Of a stretch of DNA of 38,687 bases, positions 11,680 to 33,532 are shown piece by piece. The stretch comes from Planctomycetota bacterium (GTDB lineage: Bacteria; Planctomycetota; Planctomycetia; Pirellulales; Pirellulaceae). Each line of letters opens with the position of its first letter. Position 1 is the first letter of the stretch. The notes below the pieces were generated by a model. That model did not search any database. It was not told the DNA's origin and worked only from the letters and a program-made list of their open reading frames with translations. The translations under genes were made by a program, and so were the position numbers. The stretch covers positions 1 through 38,687 of the forward strand of contig JAGWZB010000006.1 in assembly GCA_018969045.1 (NCBI GenBank). The letters are read 5' to 3'.

Positions 11680-12462
11680 TTATCGGCCCGCTGCCCAGAC
11701 AATGCCTCGCACAAGAGTCGTTAAGAAAACTTTATCGGTGAAAGTGTCATTGGAATGCCCGTAAGTGGTTCCGAAAACTCGGGCTTTGCCAAACTGATTG
11801 GTCCAGAAAACCGGTTGAACTAGACCTGTTTTCTCGCTTTTGGTCGTCGCAAGCACCTTGGTGTTGGGCCATATTTTCTCGACGATGTAGAGCTCATCCA
11901 TCGGGGTCTTGTAATCGACCGGAATCCCCTTGGTGATCGGGCTATCTTTGTCGACGACTTCTACGGGATATCGGCTTTGATGTTCATGCATCTTGGAAGT
12001 CACCCCCAAGAACTCTCGCCAGTCATCGATTTTGGCAGATCGATACGTATGCATGGCGCAATGAATCACCACCGCATTTACCCCTTGGCGATGCGGCTCC
12101 GTGATCTTTCGAATGTACTCCTGGTCGTCGGTATCGGCGAAGCACTCGTTGTGGACGACCACATCAAAACCCTTGGCCCAATCCGGCTTGTTGTACAGAT
12201 CGATCATGGCACGCGTCCCTTTGCCACCTTCAAAAACGATCGTCCACTCGATTTCCACCCCCTGCTCCTTGGCCGCCAATTGCATCGCCTTGGTCTGGTA
12301 ATCGTAGTCGTGGCAACAACCTCCGGTGATCACCAGCACTTTCACCGGCTCGGCGGCTTGAACACTCAACAAAGCCCAACACAGGCACATCAAGCTTACG
12401 AATTGCAAAGCGAAGTGTCTTGCAGAGCGAATACCGGGAAAAGGTGCGAGGGGTTGTATCAT
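11680..12462 (-). CDS. Secreted ThuA-like domain protein (260 aa)
   Basis: ThuA-like proteins have a class-I glutamine-amidotransferase-like fold and are abundant in planctomycetes, mostly without a proven activity. Residues 1-36 are a signal peptide (FALQFVSLMCLCWALLSVQAA). Mature residues start with KVLVITGGCCHDYDYQ, the hallmark GG-x-x-H, then FDVVVHNECFAD, GVNAVVIHCAMHTYR, SPITKGIP, DELYIVE and the closing ARVFGTTYGHSNDTF. The family name comes from trehalose utilisation, but the true substrate is not known. Its ATG overlaps the TGA of the HtrA-like gene (ATGA), so translation is coupled. With its signal peptide it would act in the periplasm, like the neighbouring protease and propeller protein. 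Confidence 0.85.
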   Translation of the reverse strand: MIQPLAPFPGIRSARHFALQFVSLMCLCWALLSVQAAEPVKVLVITGGCCHDYDYQTKAMQLAAKEQGVEIEWTIVFEGGKGTRAMIDLYNKPDWAKGFDVVVHNECFADTDDQEYIRKITEPHRQGVNAVVIHCAMHTYRSAKIDDWREFLGVTSKMHEHQSRYPVEVVDKDSPITKGIPVDYKTPMDELYIVEKIWPNTKVLATTKSEKTGLVQPVFWTNQFGKARVFGTTYGHSNDTFTDKVFLTTLVRGIVWAAGR

Positions 12463-13721
12463 GGTGCGAAACTGAGTTCTCCGAGGATGGCTTGGACGAC
12501 CAACCGCTGGCCGTCGCGTTGCAGATGGATTTCGATCGACTGACCTGCAGGTGTATCGCGTATCGTGTCGATCGCTTGTTCGACCGACACCACTTCGATG
12601 TCGCTGAGTTGGATCAGGCGGTCACCAGGCGCAAGGCCAGCTTGGGCAGCTGGCGAATCGGGCACGACGGCTCGGACCACAATCGCCGGTGTCTGGATCG
12701 ATGGATCAGAAAGTATTTCAGGAACCAATTCGATGCCCAACCAACCTCGGCGAACCCGTCCATGCTCGATCAATTGATCAAAGATTTCTTTGGCGATATT
12801 CGATGGGATAGAAAAACTCACTCCCCGGTAGGACTCCCCAACAATGGCGGTGTTGATTCCGATGAGCTCCCCTCGTCCGTTGACCAAAGGCCCCCCGCTG
12901 TTGCCGGGATTGACAGCAACGTCGCTTTGCATCAAGTCCGCGTAGCGGGACGAGATCCTTTCGCGCGAACTGCGGTACTGAGGATTGGCATTCAAGTCGA
13001 CGCGATGCTTGCCGCTGAGGATCCCAAATGAGACCGATCCGGTTAAACCAAATGGACTACCGACTGCCCATACCGGCGAGCCGATCTCGAGAGCATCGCT
13101 GTTGCCCCAATCGATCGGCATAAGCCCCTGAGCGTCGATCTTCAGCAGTGCCAAATCGGTCGTCTTGTCCACACCCACAATCTCTGCAGCCAACATCCTC
13201 TGGTCAGCAAGGTAGACAGCGATGTCGACTCCACCGTTTAGGACATGGTGGTTGGTCAAAATATAGCCATCGTCGCTGACGATCACACCACTGCCTTGTC
13301 CGCTGAAACTATAAGCATCGATGCTGCTGTCGGAGTTCCATCGGGTCTCGCGATTGGGACCTACTTTTGGTACCAAGTCCTTTGGTTTGCGGCTCAAGGT
13401 CGAACTTAGAGGCTGCGAATTCGAAACCGTAATGTGCACCACGCTGGGTTGAACGCGTTTGGTGACCAACCGTGATACTTGAGACAACCCCTCCCAAGAA
13501 ATCTGACCGAGACTCTCAGCGGATTGCTCATACTCAGCCCTTAAGTGCCCTCGATGCCAGGAATACCTGGAGGACTCGAGCATCGGAGGCAATAGAAAAC
13601 GAAGCACCGTTAGCAGGACCAAAACCACCAGCAAACTCAGCAACGACGAACCGACCAAATGGCGCATCGAAGGATGATTTTGTTGGGGAGAATCGGGTTC
13701 GTTGGGGCTGGTTTCACTCAT
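12459..13721 (-). CDS. HtrA/Deg-type serine protease with membrane anchor and one PDZ domain (420 aa)
   Basis: A trypsin-like quality-control protease. A cytoplasmic tail is followed by one membrane segment (about residues 22-46) placing the enzyme outside the cytoplasm, as in DegS. The protease domain spans about 80-300: SGVIVSDDGYILTNHHVL (His159), TTDLALLKID (Asp189) and NPGNSGGPLV (Ser275) give a complete triad. A single PDZ domain lies at about 310-415 (GWLGIEL, VPDSPAAQAGLAPGDRLIQL). The 30-residue insert RSSRERISSRYADL before the active serine is at the usual place of the sensor loops. It is downstream of the propeller gene by 30 bases and overlaps the ThuA gene by four. DegS-like stress signalling is possible, but no sigma or anti-sigma factor is nearby. 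Confidence 0.92.
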   Translation of the reverse strand: MSETSPNEPDSPQQNHPSMRHLVGSSLLSLLVVLVLLTVLRFLLPPMLESSRYSWHRGHLRAEYEQSAESLGQISWEGLSQVSRLVTKRVQPSVVHITVSNSQPLSSTLSRKPKDLVPKVGPNRETRWNSDSSIDAYSFSGQGSGVIVSDDGYILTNHHVLNGGVDIAVYLADQRMLAAEIVGVDKTTDLALLKIDAQGLMPIDWGNSDALEIGSPVWAVGSPFGLTGSVSFGILSGKHRVDLNANPQYRSSRERISSRYADLMQSDVAVNPGNSGGPLVNGRGELIGINTAIVGESYRGVSFSIPSNIAKEIFDQLIEHGRVRRGWLGIELVPEILSDPSIQTPAIVVRAVVPDSPAAQAGLAPGDRLIQLSDIEVVSVEQAIDTIRDTPAGQSIEIHLQRDGQRLVVQAILGELSFAP

Positions 13722-16126: not shown

Positions 16127-16447
16127 GTTCGGTCAAGGCGTTGGTTCAGAATCCACTCAGGCAATCCCTAGGCTCATGCGATGGACAAGCCCCATACCGG
16201 TGGGTGGTTCCCAGCATGAGGCGATGAGTATAGCAACGCACTGCGAGGCGTCGGGGTGGAAAAAGGATTTTGACAAGATTTCAACAATTTTGACGATTCC
16301 TCCGTTTTGGGGGGTGACTACGCCTAGGTGGGCAAGTTAGATTCTACGGCTACTGCGGGCCTGCTATCACGCTTTGTATGCGTGAATCGTGGCCATTGCG
16401 CCGTGGCTCGTTTCCCCACTCCAGCCATAGAAAGTGCTGATGTTGCG
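16127..16447. other. Divergent intergenic region, 321 bases
   Basis: This lies between the minus-strand FabH gene and the plus-strand NRDE gene and must hold both promoters. TTGACA at about 16271 could be a -35 box for the plus strand, but the expected -10 position is a poor match. The frame of the NRDE gene stays open back to 16328, yet the residues before MCLIA do not look like protein. I see no RNA gene or strong hairpin. Confidence 0.35.
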
Positions 16448-17275
16448 ATGTGCTTGATCGCCATTCAATATCGCGTGGTTCCAGAGAGTCCAATCCTCGT
16501 GGCCACCAATCGCGAGGAGTTCTACGATCGTCGAAGTCATTCGCCGAGTATCCAATCTGGCAAACCCCGTGTACTGTGTCCCCTCGATCAACGTAACGGA
16601 GGGACTTGGCTGGGAGTCAATCAACATGGAGTCTTCGTCGGGATTTGCAACCGAAGGGTTTCGGAACCCTTGGGTTCGAACCGTTCCCGAGGTCTGCTCG
16701 TCAAAGAAGTGTTGAAAGCTCCCAGTAGTCGTGCAGCTGTCGAGCGGGCTCTGGAAGAGACCGCAAAACACCGCTTCGAAGCCTGTAACTTAATCATCGC
16801 AGACCGCGATTTCGGTTTTGCGGTCCATCATGATCAGGAAGACGAAGTCGTCGACTTGCAACCTGGACTGAGCATCATCGGCGGGCGGAATCTGAACGAT
16901 CCGCGCGACGAACGCGTCCAACTTGCAGGCCGATTGCTGACGCTTCAGAACCTCGATTCCCCTGTGAAATTCCTCGCTGTTGCCAGCAAGGTTTTCGCTC
17001 GCACCCCCAATCCACTAGCCCGCGCTAGCATGGTCATTCAAGGTGGTGAATACGGAACGGTATCGAGCACCCTGATCGCGTTGGGACCCAAACCCCGAGA
17101 CGCGATCTTCCAGTACGCGGATGGGCCTGCCAGCGAAGCTCGATTCGAGGACTACTCCCCTTTATTGCGGGATATCCTCAGCCGCGGACTTCGCGAATCT
17201 CGCACCAAAGCCGCAGCGGCCGTCGAAATGTCCGACATCGATGCCGAACTAGCCCAAACCGCTGACATCGATTGA
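16448..17275 (+). CDS. NRDE/TANGO2 family protein (275 aa)
   Basis: The start at 16448 gives MCLIAIQYRV, placing Cys at position 2, as is invariant in the family, which is thought to use an N-terminal nucleophile fold. The family name motif appears as ATNREEFYDRRS (residues 27-38; here N-R-E-E rather than N-R-D-E). It is followed by GGTWLGVNQHGVFVGICNRR, matching 'GGTWLG...G..A.LTN'. SRGLLVKEVL and FEACNLIIADRDFGFAVHH follow, and a late STLIALGP matches the usual 'SS..I'. The biochemical role is unsettled; the human homologue TANGO2 is linked to metabolic disease and haem or lipid handling. The gene overlaps the leader of the next one: its TGA lies nine bases before the ATG of the dehydrogenase, so the two are an operon. 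Confidence 0.85.
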   Translation: MCLIAIQYRVVPESPILVATNREEFYDRRSHSPSIQSGKPRVLCPLDQRNGGTWLGVNQHGVFVGICNRRVSEPLGSNRSRGLLVKEVLKAPSSRAAVERALEETAKHRFEACNLIIADRDFGFAVHHDQEDEVVDLQPGLSIIGGRNLNDPRDERVQLAGRLLTLQNLDSPVKFLAVASKVFARTPNPLARASMVIQGGEYGTVSSTLIALGPKPRDAIFQYADGPASEARFEDYSPLLRDILSRGLRESRTKAAAAVEMSDIDAELAQTADID

Positions 17276-24921: not shown

Positions 24922-27549
24922 ATGAGCAACGAGACGCCCAAAGATGGGCACCAGGATGCCGGGGTCACGCGTCGGCTGGATCCTGACGACAAGACTCAAA
25001 AGGGATGGGTACCGGAGAATGAGTTCGATTTCGATTTCGATTTTGGACGTTCTTTGGTGACCGGCCAACGGCGCACGCCGGTCCTGGGTGAGTACATCGT
25101 TCTGGATCGATTGGGTGCTGGTGGGATGGGTCAAGTCTATCGAGCTAGGCATCGGACGATGGACCGCGAAGTTGCGTTGAAGGTATTGCCCAGACGCATG
25201 TCCAGCGATGCTCAAGCCGTTGAGCGTTTTTATGCAGAGGTTCGGGCCCAGGGCAAGCTGATGCACCCGAACATCGTCACGGCCTTTGACGCTGGGTGCC
25301 ATCGCACTCGAACCAATACAGTCCATTACTTGGTGATGGAACTGATCCAAGGCGAGTCGTTATCGCATCGCGTGGGAGTTCAGGGTCCTTTGAGCGGTCA
25401 GGAGGCGATCAAGATCCTTGAGCAAGCCGCCGTGGCGCTCGAATATGCCCATGGTTTAGGGATTGTTCACCGGGACATTAAACCAGGCAATATGATGCTC
25501 ACGCACCAAGGGTTGCTCAAGATCCTCGATTTTGGATTAGCCGTCCTCAAAGACATCGGCGGTCCGGTCGACACGACCAAGAGTCAATTGATCGGTACGG
25601 TCGAGTACATGTCGCCCGAGCAGATCAACACCCCTGACTTGGTGGATCATCGGACCGATTTGTACTCGTTGGGAGCGACTCTGTTTTATTTGCTCATCGG
25701 CAGACCGATGTTCACTGGGGAGTTGATGCAAACGGCCATGGCTCAGTTGCGTCGCGCTCCACCGGCCCTCTACGAACTTCGCAGCGACCTGGATTTGCGC
25801 ATCGACTCGGTGTTTCAATGGTTGGTTGCCAAGGATGTTGTGGATCGATGCCCGTCGGCCCACCATTTGCTTGAGAAACTCTATGAGCTAAGGCTGCTTG
25901 ATCGACCCAATGTTTCGGTAGCAAGTCGCAAGGGCGATGGGATTGGCGGCCAGTTGCGAGATCGACCCACCAGTATAGGCCAAGGGACATCGACGTCCCG
26001 TAAGTCGTTCGGCCCCTTTGGAATCGACTTGGGCCTGATCCATTCCCGCTCGAGCTATGTGAACCACGAATTTAAAATCGAGCAAGTTCCATTGGATGGA
26101 GATCTTCCCGAGTTGCGAAACATGGTTTTTAGCGATCAAGGGGTGGTTCGCATCGGGGCCTCGGCGGCCCAGCAACGCGTTGCGCATCCTGAGCAGATCT
26201 TCTATGGCATCCAGCGCTGGTATGGTTTACCGCTTCTGGAGAAACCTTTCGGGGGACGCAGGGTACCCCCAGAGGTTCTCGTTGCGAGCATTTTAAGACA
26301 GATCGTGATGCAGACTAGGCGCAAGTACCCCAGCGCTTCGCATGCGGTTGTCACCGTGCCGGGTTGTTACGACCAAATGCATCGACACAGCACCAAAGTC
26401 GCCTGCTCGATCGCCGGCTTGGAAGTCCTGCAGTTGCTTGATAAGCCTTTAGCCGCCGCGCTTGCACACTGCGAGATCGAAGCCCGATTGGCGCAAGCTC
26501 GCGGGGACACCGACTACCAAAAGAACATTCTGGTCGTAATGCTCAGCGGCAGTGCCTGCGAAGCCGCAGTGGTCCGATCGACGACAACGCGGGTCGAAAC
26601 GCTTGGATCGATCGGTGATTGGCGGCGGGGCACCATCCGCTGGTATGATGTCGCCACCAAGAAACTCGCCGGGATCATCGAGAAAAAACATGGGATCAGC
26701 GCCCGAGAAAACTTAGGCCTAGCATCTCAGCTCCAGCGCACCATGGAACGAGCCTTTGAACGGCTTCGCCAAGCCGAGAAAGTCCCCTTCATCATCGAAC
26801 TGCAGAAGGGCAAGTACGAAGGGAGCCTCGAGCGTGATCGAGTGGCCGAATGGGTCGACGATTTGGTCTTAGACTGCGAGAGTTTCTCTAAAGAGGCGAT
26901 CGCTCGAGCCGGTGTCGATCCTCGCCAGATCGAAACACTGATCCTCATCGGAGATATCCGGTGGCTACCGATTTTGCAAAGCCGTATTACCTCGTTGGTA
27001 CATCCCAAAGCCCGAGTCATCCCGATGGGATCGACCGATTTGGCTCGGGGAGCTGCCGTCCAAGCTCGTCACTTGATGCCACCTCTGGATGCAAAGAACC
27101 CGATCGCTTACGGAGCTTCAAGCTACGATTTCGGATTGATCATCCAAGAGCCTGGAGGACACGTACAGCCCCCCAAGGTTCTGATCGCCAAGGACACTCC
27201 TTTGGGTCAGCAAGTCAGTCGAACCTTGCGATTTACCCGCGAAGGCAAACAGCAACCTGTTTTGCAATTCGTCGAGGGAACTCGATTTGGCAGTCTCAAT
27301 TGGAATCGATTGGCCAGTGTCGATCTGCAAACCTGTTTCGAGGATCGCCACAGGGCCGACCCCTTGCAACTGAACCTTGAAACCGACATCAATGGGATGC
27401 TCAACAGCTCGATCACTTGGCTGGCTGGAAACAAGCAACTGCCAGTACCCTCTCTTGGAATTCCCACCATGGACGCGATTTCGATGCGACACTGGCGCGA
27501 TTGGCTCGAGTCCCTCATGCTCTGCAGCACCCAACCCGAGACAACTTAG
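24922..27549 (+). CDS. Serine/threonine kinase fused to a degenerate Hsp70 (875 aa)
   Basis: Residues 57-325 are a Hanks-type kinase with all catalytic motifs: RLGAGGMGQVY (65-73), Lys87 in VALKVLP, HRDIKPGN (Asp185), DFGLAVL (Asp203) and GTVEYMSPEQ. After a 40-residue linker, residues 364-800 follow Hsp70 closely: FGIDLG, RIGASAAQQRVAHPEQIFYGIQRW, SHAVVTVPGCYDQ, IAGLEVLQLLDKPLAAALAH, LILIGDIRWLPILQ, DLARGAAVQA and the beginning of a substrate-binding sandwich (PLGQQVSRTLRF). The ATPase residues are lost: in DnaK numbering T11 is Leu372, K70 is Gln431, E171 is Lys508, D194 is Met540 and T199 is Ala545; only D8 (Asp369) stays. No membrane segment is seen, so it should be cytoplasmic. The N-terminus has a FDFDFDF stretch. 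The second half may bind clients or regulate the kinase. Confidence 0.88.
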   Translation: MSNETPKDGHQDAGVTRRLDPDDKTQKGWVPENEFDFDFDFGRSLVTGQRRTPVLGEYIVLDRLGAGGMGQVYRARHRTMDREVALKVLPRRMSSDAQAVERFYAEVRAQGKLMHPNIVTAFDAGCHRTRTNTVHYLVMELIQGESLSHRVGVQGPLSGQEAIKILEQAAVALEYAHGLGIVHRDIKPGNMMLTHQGLLKILDFGLAVLKDIGGPVDTTKSQLIGTVEYMSPEQINTPDLVDHRTDLYSLGATLFYLLIGRPMFTGELMQTAMAQLRRAPPALYELRSDLDLRIDSVFQWLVAKDVVDRCPSAHHLLEKLYELRLLDRPNVSVASRKGDGIGGQLRDRPTSIGQGTSTSRKSFGPFGIDLGLIHSRSSYVNHEFKIEQVPLDGDLPELRNMVFSDQGVVRIGASAAQQRVAHPEQIFYGIQRWYGLPLLEKPFGGRRVPPEVLVASILRQIVMQTRRKYPSASHAVVTVPGCYDQMHRHSTKVACSIAGLEVLQLLDKPLAAALAHCEIEARLAQARGDTDYQKNILVVMLSGSACEAAVVRSTTTRVETLGSIGDWRRGTIRWYDVATKKLAGIIEKKHGISARENLGLASQLQRTMERAFERLRQAEKVPFIIELQKGKYEGSLERDRVAEWVDDLVLDCESFSKEAIARAGVDPRQIETLILIGDIRWLPILQSRITSLVHPKARVIPMGSTDLARGAAVQARHLMPPLDAKNPIAYGASSYDFGLIIQEPGGHVQPPKVLIAKDTPLGQQVSRTLRFTREGKQQPVLQFVEGTRFGSLNWNRLASVDLQTCFEDRHRADPLQLNLETDINGMLNSSITWLAGNKQLPVPSLGIPTMDAISMRHWRDWLESLMLCSTQPETT

Positions 27550-27668: not shown

Positions 27669-28964
27669 ATGCTCGATACTGTAGAGATCCGCTACGGGAA
27701 AAGTGAACTACCAATTAGACTTCCCAAAGGCTGTCAGCCTGTGGTGGTTCGCAAACCCCCAATGCCTCTGCTGGCAGACCCCAAGCAAGCGATTCAAGAT
27801 GCGCTTAGGTCGGGGGTCGGTTGCCCGTCGCTCTCGCAGGTGGCTCGAGGATCCACCCGAGTTTGCATCGTCATCTGCGATATCACACGCCCGGTTCCCA
27901 ACGGCCCGATTCTCAAGGGCATGATCGATGAGCTCAATGCTGCAGGGGTCTCCAACTCGCAAATCACCATCCTGATCGCCACCGGACTTCACCGTCCGAA
28001 CCTGGGCCAAGAGATGCTGGAAGTCGTCGGAGACCGGTGGGTATTTGATAACATCCGAATCGAGAATCACTTTGCTCGCGATACGGCTTGGATGGTGGAT
28101 TTGGGCCGCACACCTACCGATGGAATCCCGGTCATCCTGAATCGTCACTTGGTCGATGCGGACTTGCGCATCGTCGTCGGATTGGTCGAACCCCACTTCA
28201 TGGCAGGCTATTCTGGGGGTCGCAAAGTTGTCGCACCGGGTGTTGCGGGGGAAGAAACCATCCGAACTTTCCACAATTACCAGTTCATGGCCAACCCTTT
28301 GGCATGCAACGGCAACTTGATCGAAAACCCCTTGCATCGCGGTCAACTGGAAATCCTCAAGCTCCTGGGGCCGACTTATGCCGTCAATACAATCATCGAC
28401 GAGCAGCGCCAAATGAGCTTCGTGAACTTTGGCGAATGTGTCCAAAGCCACCTTCAGAGCGTCCAGTTGGTTCGCAAGTACGCGGAGGTTCCAATCCAGC
28501 AAAAGTTCGCTACTTTGATTACCAGCGCTGCGGGTTACCCGCTCGATAAGACGTATTATCAGACCGTCAAAGGGATGGTTGCACCGCTTCAAATCCTCGC
28601 CGATGGAGGACACATGATTGTCGCAAGCCGTTGCGAAGAGGGGCTCGGGAGTCATGAGTACAGGGATTCCCAAGCTCAATTGAAAAAGCTTGGAGCCCAG
28701 GGATTCATCGATCGGATCCGACGCATGCCCCTGGCGGATGTCGACGGATGGCAAACCCACATGCTCCTGCGGCCCCTTTCGATCGGGCGAGTTTCGTTGT
28801 ACAGCGAAGGCATCCAAGGATCCGACCGCGAGCTTACAGGTGTTGCGATGATCGATTCGATCGAGAAAGCCATCGAGCAAAGTGTGTCAGACTCAGGGGA
28901 CAAGACCATTGCGGTGATCCCTGAAGGGCCTTATGTGATTCCCATTTACAAAAACGCTCTGTAG
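27669..28964 (+). CDS. LarA-family nickel-dependent racemase-like protein (431 aa)
   Basis: LarA racemises D- and L-lactate using a nickel-pincer nucleotide bound covalently to a lysine; relatives act on other 2-hydroxyacids. Key positions are kept: ICDITRPVP (Arg74), LIATGLHRP (His108), VEPHFMAGYSGGRKVVAPGVAG (His176 and the pincer Lys186) and RTFHNYQF (His202). TLITSAAGYPLDKTYYQTVKG and YSEGIQG follow, where Asp-Lys-x-Tyr matches the substrate Tyr/Lys region. Length is normal. AGAGGA at 27655-27660 with eight bases of spacing fixes the ATG. The cofactor makers larB, larC and larE are not in the window. It is followed by a permease and a 2-hydroxyacid dehydrogenase on the same strand, which supports a lactate-like substrate. 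Confidence 0.88.
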   Translation: MLDTVEIRYGKSELPIRLPKGCQPVVVRKPPMPLLADPKQAIQDALRSGVGCPSLSQVARGSTRVCIVICDITRPVPNGPILKGMIDELNAAGVSNSQITILIATGLHRPNLGQEMLEVVGDRWVFDNIRIENHFARDTAWMVDLGRTPTDGIPVILNRHLVDADLRIVVGLVEPHFMAGYSGGRKVVAPGVAGEETIRTFHNYQFMANPLACNGNLIENPLHRGQLEILKLLGPTYAVNTIIDEQRQMSFVNFGECVQSHLQSVQLVRKYAEVPIQQKFATLITSAAGYPLDKTYYQTVKGMVAPLQILADGGHMIVASRCEEGLGSHEYRDSQAQLKKLGAQGFIDRIRRMPLADVDGWQTHMLLRPLSIGRVSLYSEGIQGSDRELTGVAMIDSIEKAIEQSVSDSGDKTIAVIPEGPYVIPIYKNAL

Positions 28965-28968
28965 CGTT
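28953..28968 (+). repeat. Small stem-loop over the larA stop codon
   Basis: AACGCT (28953-28958) pairs with AGCGTT (28963-28968) with the loop CTGT, covering the stop TAG at 28962-28964. A T8 run at 28994-29001 is too far to make a standard terminator. It may be chance or slow translation exit. Confidence 0.25.
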
Positions 28969-29028
28969 GACCCAGACCGAAATATCCGGAACCTTTTTTT
29001 TCTTTCCGTTTACAACAGACTCTCTACC

Positions 29029-30528
29029 ATGAATCTATTTGCAAGAAAGACACTCGAAGAGCTCAACGAGGAGGCAAGGGCCCAGGGCGATGGAACCCTC
29101 AAGCGGCATTTGGGACCAGTGAATTTGATCTTGCTAGGGATCGGAGCCATCATCGGTGCGGGTTTGTTTGTTCGCACCGCAGCGGCCGCTGCGGGCCATG
29201 CTGGCCCGAGCGTGACGCTCAGTTTCATCGTCGCTGCGGTGGGGTGTGCTTTAGCCGGGATGTGCTACGCGGAATTCTCGGCCATGACCCCAGTCTCAGG
29301 CAGCGCTTACACCTACTCCTATGCGACCATGGGAGAACTATTCGCGTGGATCATCGGCTGGGATTTGGTGCTCGAATACGCGCTTGGGGCCGCCACCGTC
29401 GCTATCGCTTGGTCGCAATACCTCAACAAACTCATCGAGAGTTTTATCGGTCCAGCTTACATGATCCCCTATCAGTTTTGTCACTCGCCATTTGAATCGG
29501 TCATGGTCGACGGCCAAAAAATCAGCGGCATAGTCAACCTTCCTGCCGTATTTATCTTGCTGATCCTCACGTTGATTTTGGTCAGGGGGATCAAGGAGTC
29601 GGCGGTCTTTAACGCGATCGTTGTGAGTGTCAAAGTCCTGATTGTGATTTTGTTCATCGCCTTGGGTTGGCAGTTCATCAACCCTGCCAATCATGTTCCT
29701 TTCATCCCAGAAGTAACCACGGTTCAAGACAGCATCACCGGGCAGGAGCATCCCTTTGGTGGAATATGGGGCATCCTCGGTGGTGCGGGTGTGGTCTTCT
29801 TTGCGTTCATTGGATTCGATGCCGTTTCGACCGTGGCCCAAGAAACGAAAAAACCCGAGCGAGATATGCCGATCGGTATCTTGGGTTCGCTTATCGTATG
29901 CACCGTTTTGTACATCCTTTTTAGCTGGGTGCTCACGGGCATTGCACCCTACGAAGATTTCCGAGATCCAACCAAAGGAAAAGAGGCCTCGGTCGCTTAC
30001 GCGATTCAAACGTACATGACCGGATACGGTTGGTTGGGTAAATTCATCACCGTTGCGATTCTCTTTGGTTTTTCGTCGGTGATCCTGGTGATGCTGCTGG
30101 GCCAAAGTCGCGTCTTTTACTCGATGGCCCGCGACGGGCTGGTTCCCAAAGTCTTCTCCGAGTTGCATCCTGTGTTTCATACACCCGCCAAATCGAACTG
30201 GATCTTTTTTGTGTTTGTTTCGATTTTTGCGGCGTTCATCCCCGATAGTGTGGTCGGGGACATGACCAGCATCGGTACCCTCTTTGCATTCGCTCTGGTC
30301 TCGATCGGGATCATTATCATGCGCAAGAGCGATCCCGATGCGCCTCGTCCATTCCGTACCCCGCTGGTCCCCCTGGTACCAATCCTTGCGGTGCTGGTAT
30401 GTGGATCGATGATCGCCGGATTGGGTCTGGGCAATTGGCTCAGGCTAGGCGTATGGCTTGCCATTGGCATGGTGATTTATTTCGCTTACGGTGTGAAGAA
30501 CAGTCGAGTGCAATTGTCCCGTAGGTAA
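29029..30528 (+). CDS. APC-superfamily amino acid permease, CAT-type (499 aa)
   Basis: A membrane transporter with about 12-13 segments. The first helix has the unwound-substrate-site motif NLILLGIGAIIGAGLFV, then AGPSVTLSFIVAAVGCALAGMCYAEFSAMTPVSGSAYTYSY, with the family's 'Y-x-E-x-x-x-x-P-x-x-G-x-x-Y'. GWDLVLEYALGAATVAIAWS and FFAFIGFDAVSTVAQETKKPERDMPIGI follow, the standard signature of the cationic amino acid transporter branch. An external loop (about 150-165) is longer than usual. The solute is normally an amino acid taken up with protons. Its place between larA and a 2-hydroxyacid dehydrogenase suggests the substrate may instead feed that pathway, but this is inference. The ATG at 29029 has no strong ribosome site. 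Confidence 0.9.
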   Translation: MNLFARKTLEELNEEARAQGDGTLKRHLGPVNLILLGIGAIIGAGLFVRTAAAAAGHAGPSVTLSFIVAAVGCALAGMCYAEFSAMTPVSGSAYTYSYATMGELFAWIIGWDLVLEYALGAATVAIAWSQYLNKLIESFIGPAYMIPYQFCHSPFESVMVDGQKISGIVNLPAVFILLILTLILVRGIKESAVFNAIVVSVKVLIVILFIALGWQFINPANHVPFIPEVTTVQDSITGQEHPFGGIWGILGGAGVVFFAFIGFDAVSTVAQETKKPERDMPIGILGSLIVCTVLYILFSWVLTGIAPYEDFRDPTKGKEASVAYAIQTYMTGYGWLGKFITVAILFGFSSVILVMLLGQSRVFYSMARDGLVPKVFSELHPVFHTPAKSNWIFFVFVSIFAAFIPDSVVGDMTSIGTLFAFALVSIGIIIMRKSDPDAPRPFRTPLVPLVPILAVLVCGSMIAGLGLGNWLRLGVWLAIGMVIYFAYGVKNSRVQLSRR

Positions 30529-30571
30529 CCCAGGGGCAGATAAGTTCGGGACCGGTCGTCCAGGGAGCGTT

Positions 30572-33532
30572 GTGGAAGCAGAACAAGCTAGAATCCAGGC
30601 GGATTTGAGAGGGATTCTCGATGGAGAGGTCTTTTGTGATCCATTGCACTCTCAGATGTACGCCAGCGATGCGAGCTTGTACCAGATCGCACCCATCGCG
30701 GTGGTCAGACCCCGTCATGGCGATGATGTCTCGAACTGCATCAAATACGCCGTCGAGAACGCCTTGCCTGTCTTCCCGCGAGGAGGGGGAACAGGCCTTG
30801 CGGGCCAATCGCTTGGTCCAGGCATCGTGCTGGATTTTTCGAGGTTCATGCGACGATTGCTCGATATCGACGTCGATGCGCACTTGGTTCGTGTCCAACC
30901 AGGAATAACACTTGGGGATCTGAATCGCCAGTTGGCCCAGCATCGATTGGTGCTGGGGATCGATCCTCCGATGCGGGCCGTAACGACCGTTGGCAGCTTG
31001 ATGGCGATCGATGCTTTGGGAAGTCACTACCCGCGTTACGGGACAGCCGGTTCGCACTTGGGGATGGCTCGAGCCGTCTTGGCCGACGGTCAGCAGGTCC
31101 TGTTGGGAAAAACATCCTGGCATTATCCCAACACGGGGAACGCCCAGCTTGATCGTATCGCAATCGAACTTGGACAACTCCTGACCCATCACAAAGATAC
31201 GCTTCTTTCGCCACCATGGAAGGGCGTTCCACGCGGATGCGGCTATCGGCTTGAATCGGTTCTTGAGGACGATCAAGTTCATCTAGCGCGACTGCAGTCA
31301 GGTGCCGAAGGTACGTTGTCGGTGATGACCGAACTGACCTTGAAAGTCGATCCGACTCCCAACGCTCGTGGCTTGGTTTTGCTGTTTTTTGAGAAACTCG
31401 AATTGGCTGCACGCGGAGCCTTGGAGGCTCGCAAGGATGAAGTGGCCGCTTGCGATTTGATGGATCGCAGACTCATCGAAATCGCTCGGGAACTGGACCC
31501 ACGTTACGAAGCGATGTTGCCACGCGGGGCCGAAGCCCTGCTATTGATCGAGCATCAAGGCCAAGAGATCAGCGATGTCAAACAACGCTTAAGCGCCTTG
31601 GTCCAGCGGATCGTCCGCAAAGCACCTTCGACCCAACAGACTTCGATCGTTGTCGACGATGCCGAGCGAGATTTCATTTGGCGACTGAGTCGTCGTATTG
31701 TTCCCCAATTGGTCCGGCTAGGTGGACCTCAAAAACCGATTTCCTTTGTTGACGATCTTTCCATCCAACCCGAGCGAATGCCCGAGTTTCTCCACGATGT
31801 TCAGAACATCCTCAAAACAGAGCGGGTAACAGCCACGCTCTTTGCGCACGCGGCTCAAGGCAATGTGCAACTGCGACCGTTTCTGGACCCGGGCTGCGAA
31901 GAGGACATCCAAAAGCTGCAGCGGATCGCCGAAAGGATCTTTGAAAAAGTCATCGAATTCAAAGGGGTCATCTCGGGCGAACATGCAGTGGGACTCAGCC
32001 GCAGCGGATACTTGCGCCAACAACTGGGCGATCTTTACCCGATCTGTCGCCAGATCAAATCATGGTTCGATCCCGACGGCATTCTGAATCCCGGAAAATT
32101 AATTACCGACTCCCCCCAGCGCGCTATCGACAATCTGCGAACCATCCGGAATCGATCGGTAGTCGATACCCAAGAGGCCCTACAGCCCAGCCGACCCATG
32201 CTCCCGATCTTGGACTGGTCAAGCGAGAAATCGCTACAAGCCACAAGCGACCAATGCAACGGATGTGGACGCTGCCGTACCAGCGCACCGGGCGAGCGGA
32301 TGTGCCCAATGTTTCGAGTTATACGCAGCGAAGAAGCTAGCCCACGAGCCAAAGCCAACCTCATGCGAGGATTGCTCTCCGGGGACATCTCGGGCCCACA
32401 GAGCGAAAGCGATCCAATGCGAGCCATCGCCGATCTATGTTTCCATTGCCATCAATGCCGATTCGAATGCCCTGCCCAAGTCGACATCCCCAGAATGGTC
32501 GTGGAACTCAAAGCCCAGCACACCGCCACCCACGGACTGAGAATTACCGATCGACTCCTCTCTCGAATCGATCTATTGACAGGGATTGCCTGCCGTTTTC
32601 CACGTCTAGCCAATTGGGCTATGGGCAACCGCTCGATGCGCTGGCTACTTGAAAAGTCAACTGGGATCGCAATGGGACGGCGATTGCCAAAGATCGCCAA
32701 TCAAACGTTTATGCGATGGGCAGTCAAACATAAACTCAATCGCATGAGCCGAGCAGGTGGACGCAAGGTCCTGTACTTGGTCGACCAGTACGCCAATTGG
32801 CATAACCCTTGGGTGGGCAAGGCGTTGGTCGAAGTCATGAAGCACCAAAGGGTCGATGTCTACGTACCGACTTGGCAGACCGTCACTTGGATGACCAAAA
32901 TATCCCTTGGCGATGTCGAAAGAGTCCGGCGGTTGGTCACCCCGCAACTGCGTAGGCTCGCCGATGCTGTCCGCCAAGGTTACACGATCGTTGCTACCGA
33001 GCCGACAGCCGCCCTGTGCTTGCAACATGAGTACCCCAACCTCTTTCCTAGCGACGATGCCACATTGGTTGCCGGCAATACCAAAGAAGCTGGAAGTTAT
33101 CTCTGGGAAATGCACAATCAAAATGAATTGGAGTTGGATTTCAGACCCTTGAGCATGTCGATCATGTACCACACTCCGTGCCACCTGAGAGCCTTGGATC
33201 CCAATTACAATGGACTCAAACTTTTGCAATTGATCCCTGGGCTGAATGTTCTGAATGCAGACTCCGGATGCTCCGGGATGGCCGGAGTGTATGGACTCAA
33301 ACGGGAGAACAATCGGACGAGTTTGCGGGTCGGTTGGGGACTCATCAGCACCATGCAAAAGACGCAAGCTCAGATCGGAAGCACCGAATGCGCCTCCTGC
33401 AAGTTGCAGATGGAGCAAGGAGTAGACAAACCGACCATCCCACCGATCGCGCTGCTAGCCTACGCCTACGGCAGACTGCCAGAAGTCAAGGCTTGGATCC
33501 AAACCCGACACGATAGCCTCGTGGTCCCTTAA
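30572..33532 (+). CDS. FAD/Fe-S 2-hydroxyacid dehydrogenase, GlcD-GlpC fusion, YdiJ-like (986 aa)
   Basis: The start is a GTG with GGGAG about seven bases upstream. Residues 30-500 form an FAD-linked oxidase of the VAO/GlcD type: FPRGGGTGLAGQS (69-81), VRVQPGITLGDLN, AVTTVGSLMAIDALGSHYPRYG, LQSGAEGTLSVMTELTL, and GEHAVGLSRSGYL with PDGILNPGKL. Residues 562-640 hold two Fe-S motifs: CNGCGRC...ERMCPMF (C-x2-C-x2-C-x9-C-P, the first Cys at 562) and CFHCHQCRFECP (from Cys623). The last 300 residues carry GlpC/CCG-type cysteines (MYHTPCHLRA, DSGCSGMAG, ECASCKLQM). The long spacing in the first cluster is typical of E. coli YdiJ, a D-2-hydroxyglutarate dehydrogenase; D-lactate is the other candidate, favoured by the larA neighbour. 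Electrons would go to the quinone pool or a carrier. The stop overlaps that of cutC on the other strand. Confidence 0.9.
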   Translation: MEAEQARIQADLRGILDGEVFCDPLHSQMYASDASLYQIAPIAVVRPRHGDDVSNCIKYAVENALPVFPRGGGTGLAGQSLGPGIVLDFSRFMRRLLDIDVDAHLVRVQPGITLGDLNRQLAQHRLVLGIDPPMRAVTTVGSLMAIDALGSHYPRYGTAGSHLGMARAVLADGQQVLLGKTSWHYPNTGNAQLDRIAIELGQLLTHHKDTLLSPPWKGVPRGCGYRLESVLEDDQVHLARLQSGAEGTLSVMTELTLKVDPTPNARGLVLLFFEKLELAARGALEARKDEVAACDLMDRRLIEIARELDPRYEAMLPRGAEALLLIEHQGQEISDVKQRLSALVQRIVRKAPSTQQTSIVVDDAERDFIWRLSRRIVPQLVRLGGPQKPISFVDDLSIQPERMPEFLHDVQNILKTERVTATLFAHAAQGNVQLRPFLDPGCEEDIQKLQRIAERIFEKVIEFKGVISGEHAVGLSRSGYLRQQLGDLYPICRQIKSWFDPDGILNPGKLITDSPQRAIDNLRTIRNRSVVDTQEALQPSRPMLPILDWSSEKSLQATSDQCNGCGRCRTSAPGERMCPMFRVIRSEEASPRAKANLMRGLLSGDISGPQSESDPMRAIADLCFHCHQCRFECPAQVDIPRMVVELKAQHTATHGLRITDRLLSRIDLLTGIACRFPRLANWAMGNRSMRWLLEKSTGIAMGRRLPKIANQTFMRWAVKHKLNRMSRAGGRKVLYLVDQYANWHNPWVGKALVEVMKHQRVDVYVPTWQTVTWMTKISLGDVERVRRLVTPQLRRLADAVRQGYTIVATEPTAALCLQHEYPNLFPSDDATLVAGNTKEAGSYLWEMHNQNELELDFRPLSMSIMYHTPCHLRALDPNYNGLKLLQLIPGLNVLNADSGCSGMAGVYGLKRENNRTSLRVGWGLISTMQKTQAQIGSTECASCKLQMEQGVDKPTIPPIALLAYAYGRLPEVKAWIQTRHDSLVVP

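Follow-up and report, generated by a model that had tools for sequence, protein, structure and literature searches.

The stretch of planctomycete DNA analysed here, 38,687 nucleotides in all and called the window below, carries on its forward strand a gene for a protein of 875 amino acids, read in a single ORF at 24922-27549 from an ATG at 24922 to a TAG stop at 27547-27549. Pfam assigns residues 59-319 to Pkinase (PF00069, 1.6e-46) and residues 429-828 to HSP70 (PF00012, 9.2e-29; 100.5 bits, the curated cut-off being 20.6). Of the solved structures, a DnaK chain, 5obu_A, is the closest in sequence (5.3e-20). The genome from which the window comes gave two HSP70 matches, namely a true DnaK (L040, 834 bits) and the fusion protein. 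The features of the gene are, in window coordinates:

24922..27549, + strand: kinase/pseudo-Hsp70 fusion gene, 875 aa (ORF, Pfam)
24922..25071, + strand: N-terminal tail, residues 1-50, predicted to be disordered, with T16 (pLDDT <50; column count)
25096..25878, + strand: Hanks-type Ser/Thr kinase domain, residues 59-319, catalytic residues present (Pfam PF00069; invariant columns)
25909..26004, + strand: linker predicted to be disordered, residues 330-361, with T350 as a candidate phosphorylation site (model; column count)
26008..27081, + strand: pseudo-NBD of predicted actin/Hsp70 fold, residues 363-720, ATPase residues lost (Pfam, alignment, model)
26035..26037, + strand: Leu372 at the position of DnaK T11, Met or Leu in 78/78 members (alignment)
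26212..26214, + strand: Gln431 at the position of DnaK K70 (alignment)
26443..26445, + strand: Lys508 at the position of DnaK E171, Lys or Arg in 78/78 members (alignment)
26539..26556, + strand: Met540 to Ala545, corresponding to the D194-T199 phosphate loop of DnaK (alignment)
27097..27450, + strand: predicted SBD-beta sandwich, residues 726-843 (alignment, model)
27475..27528, + strand: predicted single C-terminal helix with W858 and W861, replacing the lid (model; column count)

A search with one peptide pattern of the dead family, i.e. the fusions in which the ATPase residues are lost, returned 76 related loci, the titles of which name Pirellula, Rhodopirellula, Rubripirellula, Roseimaritima, Stieleria, Roseiconus and other planctomycetes. 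A chance or mis-assembled fusion was rejected, since both domains are found at 76/76 loci, although the use of that pattern biases any statement that all members carry a kinase. Kinase and Hsp70 half lie in one frame at 75 of these loci (some cut by contig ends); the exception is L117 of Rhodopirellula maiorica SM1, where a frame break distributes the gene over two frames, through a sequencing error or because the copy is broken. Two tandem kinase domains precede the pseudo-Hsp70 in three loci (L052, L076 and L077).

The neighbours of the gene in the window code for an ABC ATPase, DUF1501 and PSCyt2 proteins, LarA, an amino-acid permease, an FAD/Fe-S oxidoreductase and CutC. None of these neighbours was frequent beyond close relatives, and no operon partner was found that hints at a function. 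The divergent ABC ATPase gene is common to 10 close relatives (an ABC ATPase gene also lies beside L081), and in 23 loci, each from the Rhodopirellula side, a gene named hemC by eye is at most three genes away from the fusion. Neighbours differ between the two halves of the dead family, the widest neighbour family spanning both being present in 6 loci (1 + 5). The LarA-family protein, the permease and the oxidoreductase are encoded consecutively at 27669-33532 (+), and LarA and the oxidoreductase are kept beside the fusion in L048, L049 and L050. Elsewhere in the window are genes for a trypsin-like protease with a PDZ domain (12459-13721, -), which at about 11 kb from the fusion was not taken as linked, and for a protein of the TANGO2 family (16328-17275, +; Pfam 2.2e-23), a family best known from eukaryotes.

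The kinase half

Judged from its sequence, the N-terminal half is a complete Hanks-type Ser/Thr kinase: K87, E106, D185, N190 and D203, which make up the catalytic set of Lys, Glu, HRD Asp, Asn and DFG/DLG Asp, are invariant in all 66 full-length rows of the family alignment. The top NCBIfam match of the domain is NF033483 (4.1e-77; 260.5 bits, under the cut-off of 450), so that it is akin to the kinase domain of PknB-like PASTA kinases. The latter, however, have PASTA repeats and a transmembrane helix, whereas the fusion has neither a PASTA match nor a transmembrane-like segment. The highest hydropathy over 19 residues is 1.43 in the window protein and ranges from 1.13 to 1.74 across the 66 rows; because no transmembrane-like stretch is present in the window protein, the fusion is probably cytosolic. 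The tail and the linker contain threonines, T16 and T350, each conserved as Thr in 60/66 aligned rows, and either segment may be autophosphorylated or act as an inbuilt ligand. An anti-phage reading was also considered and rejected, as the 25 PADLOC matches listed cover the kinase domain only.

Residues and predicted fold of the Hsp70 half

Alignment of the window protein with E. coli DnaK (L039) places L372 at T11, Q431 at K70, K508 at E171, M540 at D194 and A545 at T199, D8 being retained as D369. The same columns were then counted in 78 members (the window, 75 loci of the pattern search and two later loci, with L117 omitted). Thr is absent at position 11 (Met 69, Leu 9), Lys at 70 (Gln 41, Pro 30, Met 5, others), Glu at 171 (Lys 40, Arg 38) and Asp at 194, each in 0/78, and position 199 has Ala in 50 members, Gly in 22, Ser in 5 and Thr in 1. 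By contrast, the five columns are intact in 14/14 unfused Hsp70s from genomes of the order and in the DnaK of the same genome. K270 and G342 are lost as well in the dead family, T12 and S274 are scattered, and Trp occupies position 225, which we take to be close to the phosphate-binding glycines of Hsp70, in 67/78. By these residues the Hsp70 half lacks what is needed for ATP hydrolysis and would not be a chaperone with a working ATPase.

Other positions persist. An acid is found at position 8 in 78/78 (Asp 55, Glu 23), E267 is retained in 77/78, and P143 and R151, presumably the allosteric relay of DnaK, in 78/78. The glycines of the nucleotide pocket also persist (G10 77/78, G197 77/78, G341 71/78), so that binding of nucleotide without hydrolysis may have been preserved. 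In the part corresponding to the peptide groove, of which we assume I401, M404, V407, F426, V436 and I438 of DnaK to be sites, three positions stay hydrophobic (I401 is I, L or V in 65/76, F426 is Leu in 61 and I438 is Leu in 65). M404, V407 and V436 are altered to polar residues or proline, which argues against ordinary client binding and leaves the sensing of misfolded proteins as one among several possibilities. The hydrophobic interdomain linker VLLLD (DnaK 389-393) is not kept in the dead family. New highly conserved elements are the signature P-x-x-Y-D-Q-x-x-R and, in 66/66 rows, W858 and W861. The two tryptophans lie in the single helix (852-869) after which the chain stops, the helical lid (SBD-alpha) being missing.

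The window protein was modelled with AlphaFold2 from an alignment of 66 full-length rows (the window plus 65 loci; of the 76, L107 and ten with incomplete or broken frames were omitted). The model has a mean pLDDT of 83.7, mostly >90 in the Hsp70 half, and a whole-chain pTM of 0.62, the placement of the kinase relative to the Hsp70 half being poorly fixed; the N-terminal tail (1-50) and the linker (330-361) come out as disordered. Along the whole Hsp70 half it matches chains with docked NBD and SBD, namely AMPylated BiP (7b7z_B; 480 residues at Z 45.0 and rmsd 2.5), ATP-bound DnaK (4b9q_D; 478 at Z 44.4 and rmsd 2.3) and 4jn4_A (484 at Z 44.2 and rmsd 2.4), and the Foldseek list is headed by 6asy_A (BiP-ATP2). 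For undocked chains in the ADP state the match is confined to the NBD (5obv, 349 residues at Z 37.8; 2v7y, 344 at Z 37.3). A second model, of a R. baltica member, was built from 26 rows from its side of the family (mean pLDDT 86.9, pTM 0.87) and is likewise led by docked chains (6eob, Z 44.3, rmsd 2.5 over 475; 5obv, Z 37.2, rmsd 23.3). By predicted fold, the C-terminal half thus belongs to the Hsp70 family, with an actin/Hsp70 NBD followed by SBD-beta, and the models of these two distant members suggest that NBD and SBD-beta are docked as in ATP-state Hsp70s. AlphaFold2 may be biased toward the docked state for Hsp70s in general.

What the original prediction, made from the letters of the window, had observed was confirmed, and its interpretation was borne out in part. 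A complete kinase and an Hsp70 fold do lie in one protein; the five replacements and the kept D8 are as described, the replacements being family-wide in 78 members; and the terms "active-looking kinase", from the invariant catalytic residues, and "pseudo-Hsp70", from a predicted Hsp70 fold without its ATPase residues, both appear apt. The observation has to be amended in one respect: the substrate-binding sandwich is kept, as proposed, but not just its start, since the whole of SBD-beta is modelled confidently in the window protein, and it is the helical lid that is missing.

Distribution, relatives and selection

Of 241 genomes from the window's family, at least 97 gave a hit for the dead form in a profile search (E 1e-110), covering 15 of 68 genera and 25 of the 27 genomes of the window's genus. 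In the order-level sample, at least 24 of 49 genomes of the family were positive and the dead form was not found in 197 genomes of other families, where the best score, 355.5 bits, belonged to an unfused frame of 540 aa; in the phylum-level sample 2/392 genomes were positive, both in the window's family and none outside. Since at most 6 (family), 6 (order) and 3 (phylum) candidates were scored per genome, presence counts are lower bounds, and one further member, L245, indeed lies in a genome outside the 97. Two copies each are present in G146, G386 and G430. No genome outside the window's own family yielded the dead form in the family, order and phylum samples. Hsp70-like genes of another sort were noticed in R. 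baltica BR-MGV (L198, 1202-6279) and in L202 and L203: a tandem pair of long frames of about 630-720 and 900-1000 aa, whose similarity to the Hsp70 profile is mostly in its N-terminal part; those in L198 contain GIDLGTTN and GGGTTD. Similar weak matches occur in all 8 genomes surveyed for Hsp70.

Kinase-Hsp70 fusions with intact sites also exist. They have the same domain order, but T11, K70, E171, D194 and T199 are kept in 13/13 examined (L250, with a broken frame, was excluded from this count). They are found in other genera of the window's family and, for one (L155), in another family; the 11 genomes of the window's family from which they were read (G007, G016, G024, G026, G040, G044, G048, G057, G061, G068 and G094) are not among the 97 with the dead form. 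The original prediction had made the pseudo-Hsp70 reading depend on what homologues keep: those with catalytic residues turned out to be only these 13 distant fusions in other genera, with none among the aligned members of the window's own clade. A third, half-altered group of eight fusions, from genera g3, g6 and g9 (L148, L149, L150, L240, L241, L243, L246 and L247), retains K70, E171 and D194 and has T199K and G197A in 8/8; it possibly represents a stage that binds ATP without hydrolysing it.

Trees were computed with the dead-family rows thinned to every third of the 66-row alignment and later to every second of those. Half-altered and dead forms fall on one side of a branch in Hsp70 trees (92/89, then 98/89, long branches being flagged) and in a kinase tree (74/92, a branch not starred there). 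A single origin of all kinase-Hsp70 fusions looked likely from the first kinase tree, which had 36 rows together (96/95), but was not upheld with more kinases; L155 was omitted from two later kinase trees for its very long branch. In AU tests, a single origin gave p 0.0004 for the kinases when the contig-cut L248 was counted as non-fused, p 0.07 without L248, and p 0.11 for the Hsp70 halves. Our claim is therefore limited to dead and half-altered forms lying on one side of a branch.

Substitution patterns in the aligned genes argue that the dead Hsp70 half is under strong purifying selection. YN00 was applied to 30 of the 46 pairs of members at 78%-99.5% identity, none of the 30 including the window, and many values were not usable. 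Omega for the NBD was 0.017-0.094 in 21 of the 22 pairs giving a value and 0.27 in one (L055-L066, dS 0.06); it was 0.015-0.116 for the SBD in 20 pairs and 0.017-0.122 for the kinase in 19. For the other 16 pairs, five of them with the window, YN00 was mostly without value and NG86 was used instead. Between the window and its five nearest relatives (L042-L046) this gave 0.025-0.061 for the NBD and 0.029-0.051 for the kinase, figures that are rough because dS, at 1.5-3.3, is near saturation; four of these five pairs had reached saturation of dS in the SBD. The Hsp70 fold is maintained down to about 22-25% identity.

Possible roles of a kinase-linked pseudo-Hsp70

Taken at its safest, the Hsp70 fold probably serves the kinase as a module for binding or regulation, and does so with no ATPase cycle. 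Somewhat more specifically, we favour as reasonably likely a soluble Ser/Thr kinase for which the C-terminal pseudo-Hsp70 serves as a regulatory or recognition domain. The docked arrangement of NBD and SBD-beta would persist in the absence of a nucleotide cycle, perhaps because the acid at position 8 pairs with the base at 171; being present in 78/78, these two residues could replace the Mg-nucleotide in keeping the lobes together. The lidless SBD-beta, a conserved surface of the NBD, or both, would bind a protein partner or an inbuilt segment (the N-terminal tail or the linker), and this binding would alter kinase activity or deliver substrates, much as Ssz1 in RAC works without hydrolysing ATP. 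In the passages of PMC7083937 that deal with it, yeast Ssz1 binds ATP without hydrolysis, has no lid and is in a low-affinity ATP-like state, holding an inbuilt substrate segment provided by Zuo1. Going by sequence and models, the fusion would resemble it in a predicted loss of ATP hydrolysis, the missing lid and a modelled ATP-like docked state, but Ssz1 binds ATP and partners a J-protein, whereas the Hsp70 half of the fusion is joined to a kinase and has lost much of its nucleotide pocket. AMPylated BiP, which is among the top structural matches of both models, is described in the same source as caught in an ATP-like state of low affinity. In that case an active chaperone is locked by a modification, while in the fusion the lock would be built into the sequence.

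Three of the readings that we weighed are narrower or neighbouring versions of this regulatory module and overlap with it. The pseudo-Hsp70 could sense unfolded or nascent polypeptides, SBD-beta weakly binding hydrophobic segments and thereby switching the kinase on. The completeness and lidlessness of SBD-beta in both models, the groove positions that are still hydrophobic (I401, F426, I438) and the precedent of Ssz1 speak for it, but with M404, V407 and V436 turned polar or to proline, and with immediate neighbours in the window that are not proteostasis genes, we hold it to be conceivable though rather unlikely. Unlikely, too, is that the Hsp70 half binds nucleotide without hydrolysing it and reports the nucleotide state to the kinase. 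Glycines 10, 197 and 341 and E267 would suit such a role, as would the base at 171, which could contact phosphates, and Ssz1 is described in part of PMC7083937 as doing without hydrolysis while binding ATP; against it stand the loss of T11, K70, T199, K270 and G342, the scattering of T12 and S274 and the Trp at 225. To the same, low degree we would credit a passive scaffold for docking or oligomerisation with a fixed partner, catalysis being unregulated: the P-x-x-Y-D-Q-x-x-R signature and W858/W861 speak for it, but no partner gene is linked and the neighbours change between the halves of the family.

More elaborate, and to be considered doubtful, is a sensor of protein state in which the Hsp70 half would be frozen in an ATP-like, open form by the ion pair between positions 8 and 171 in place of the nucleotide, with the kinase's own tail or linker filling the lidless groove until a client or nascent chain displaces it and so releases the kinase. 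A decaying remnant without function is what loss of the active-site residues might at first suggest, but it is rejected by dN/dS, omega being far <1 in NBD and SBD, and is hardly credible given the invariant new residues and the confident fold in two diverged members. The regulatory or recognition module remains our preferred reading.

Such a fusion was already known as an architecture, which makes the "new signalling design" of the original prediction too strong a term: as early as 2005 a table of Krupa and Srinivasan had an entry "Kinase + HSP70" for Pirellula (Pirellula sp., gi 32474490; PMC1262709). The relevant parts of that paper describe a kinase with a C-terminal HSP70-homologous domain, i.e. 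the same domain order in the same bacterial group, and make no mention of a loss of ATPase residues. When five of the seven Hsp70 matches of R. baltica BR-MGV were read (DnaK and a duplicate being left out), the only one fused to a kinase was of the dead type, and the 2005 protein therefore probably belongs to the same dead family. Beyond this architecture, none of the open-licence papers listed by the searches reported a kinase joined to a dead Hsp70. The texts of PMC11032199 and PMC8567305 do not contain "Hsp70" or "DnaK", that of PMC11019930 does not contain "kinase", and PMC7159879, in the parts concerned, covers Hsp70s of GTPase-centred conflict systems. The conserved loss of ATPase chemistry is undescribed in the open-licence literature searched.

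An Hsp70 fold that is kept after losing its enzyme chemistry, behind a complete kinase at every locus examined, amounts to a natural experiment on the abilities of Hsp70 in the absence of ATP. Relatives with intact and half-altered sites occur in this bacterial family as well, so that the path from machine to sensor is open to stepwise study, and the fusion is an approachable candidate for linking the state of the cell to Ser/Thr phosphorylation in these bacteria.
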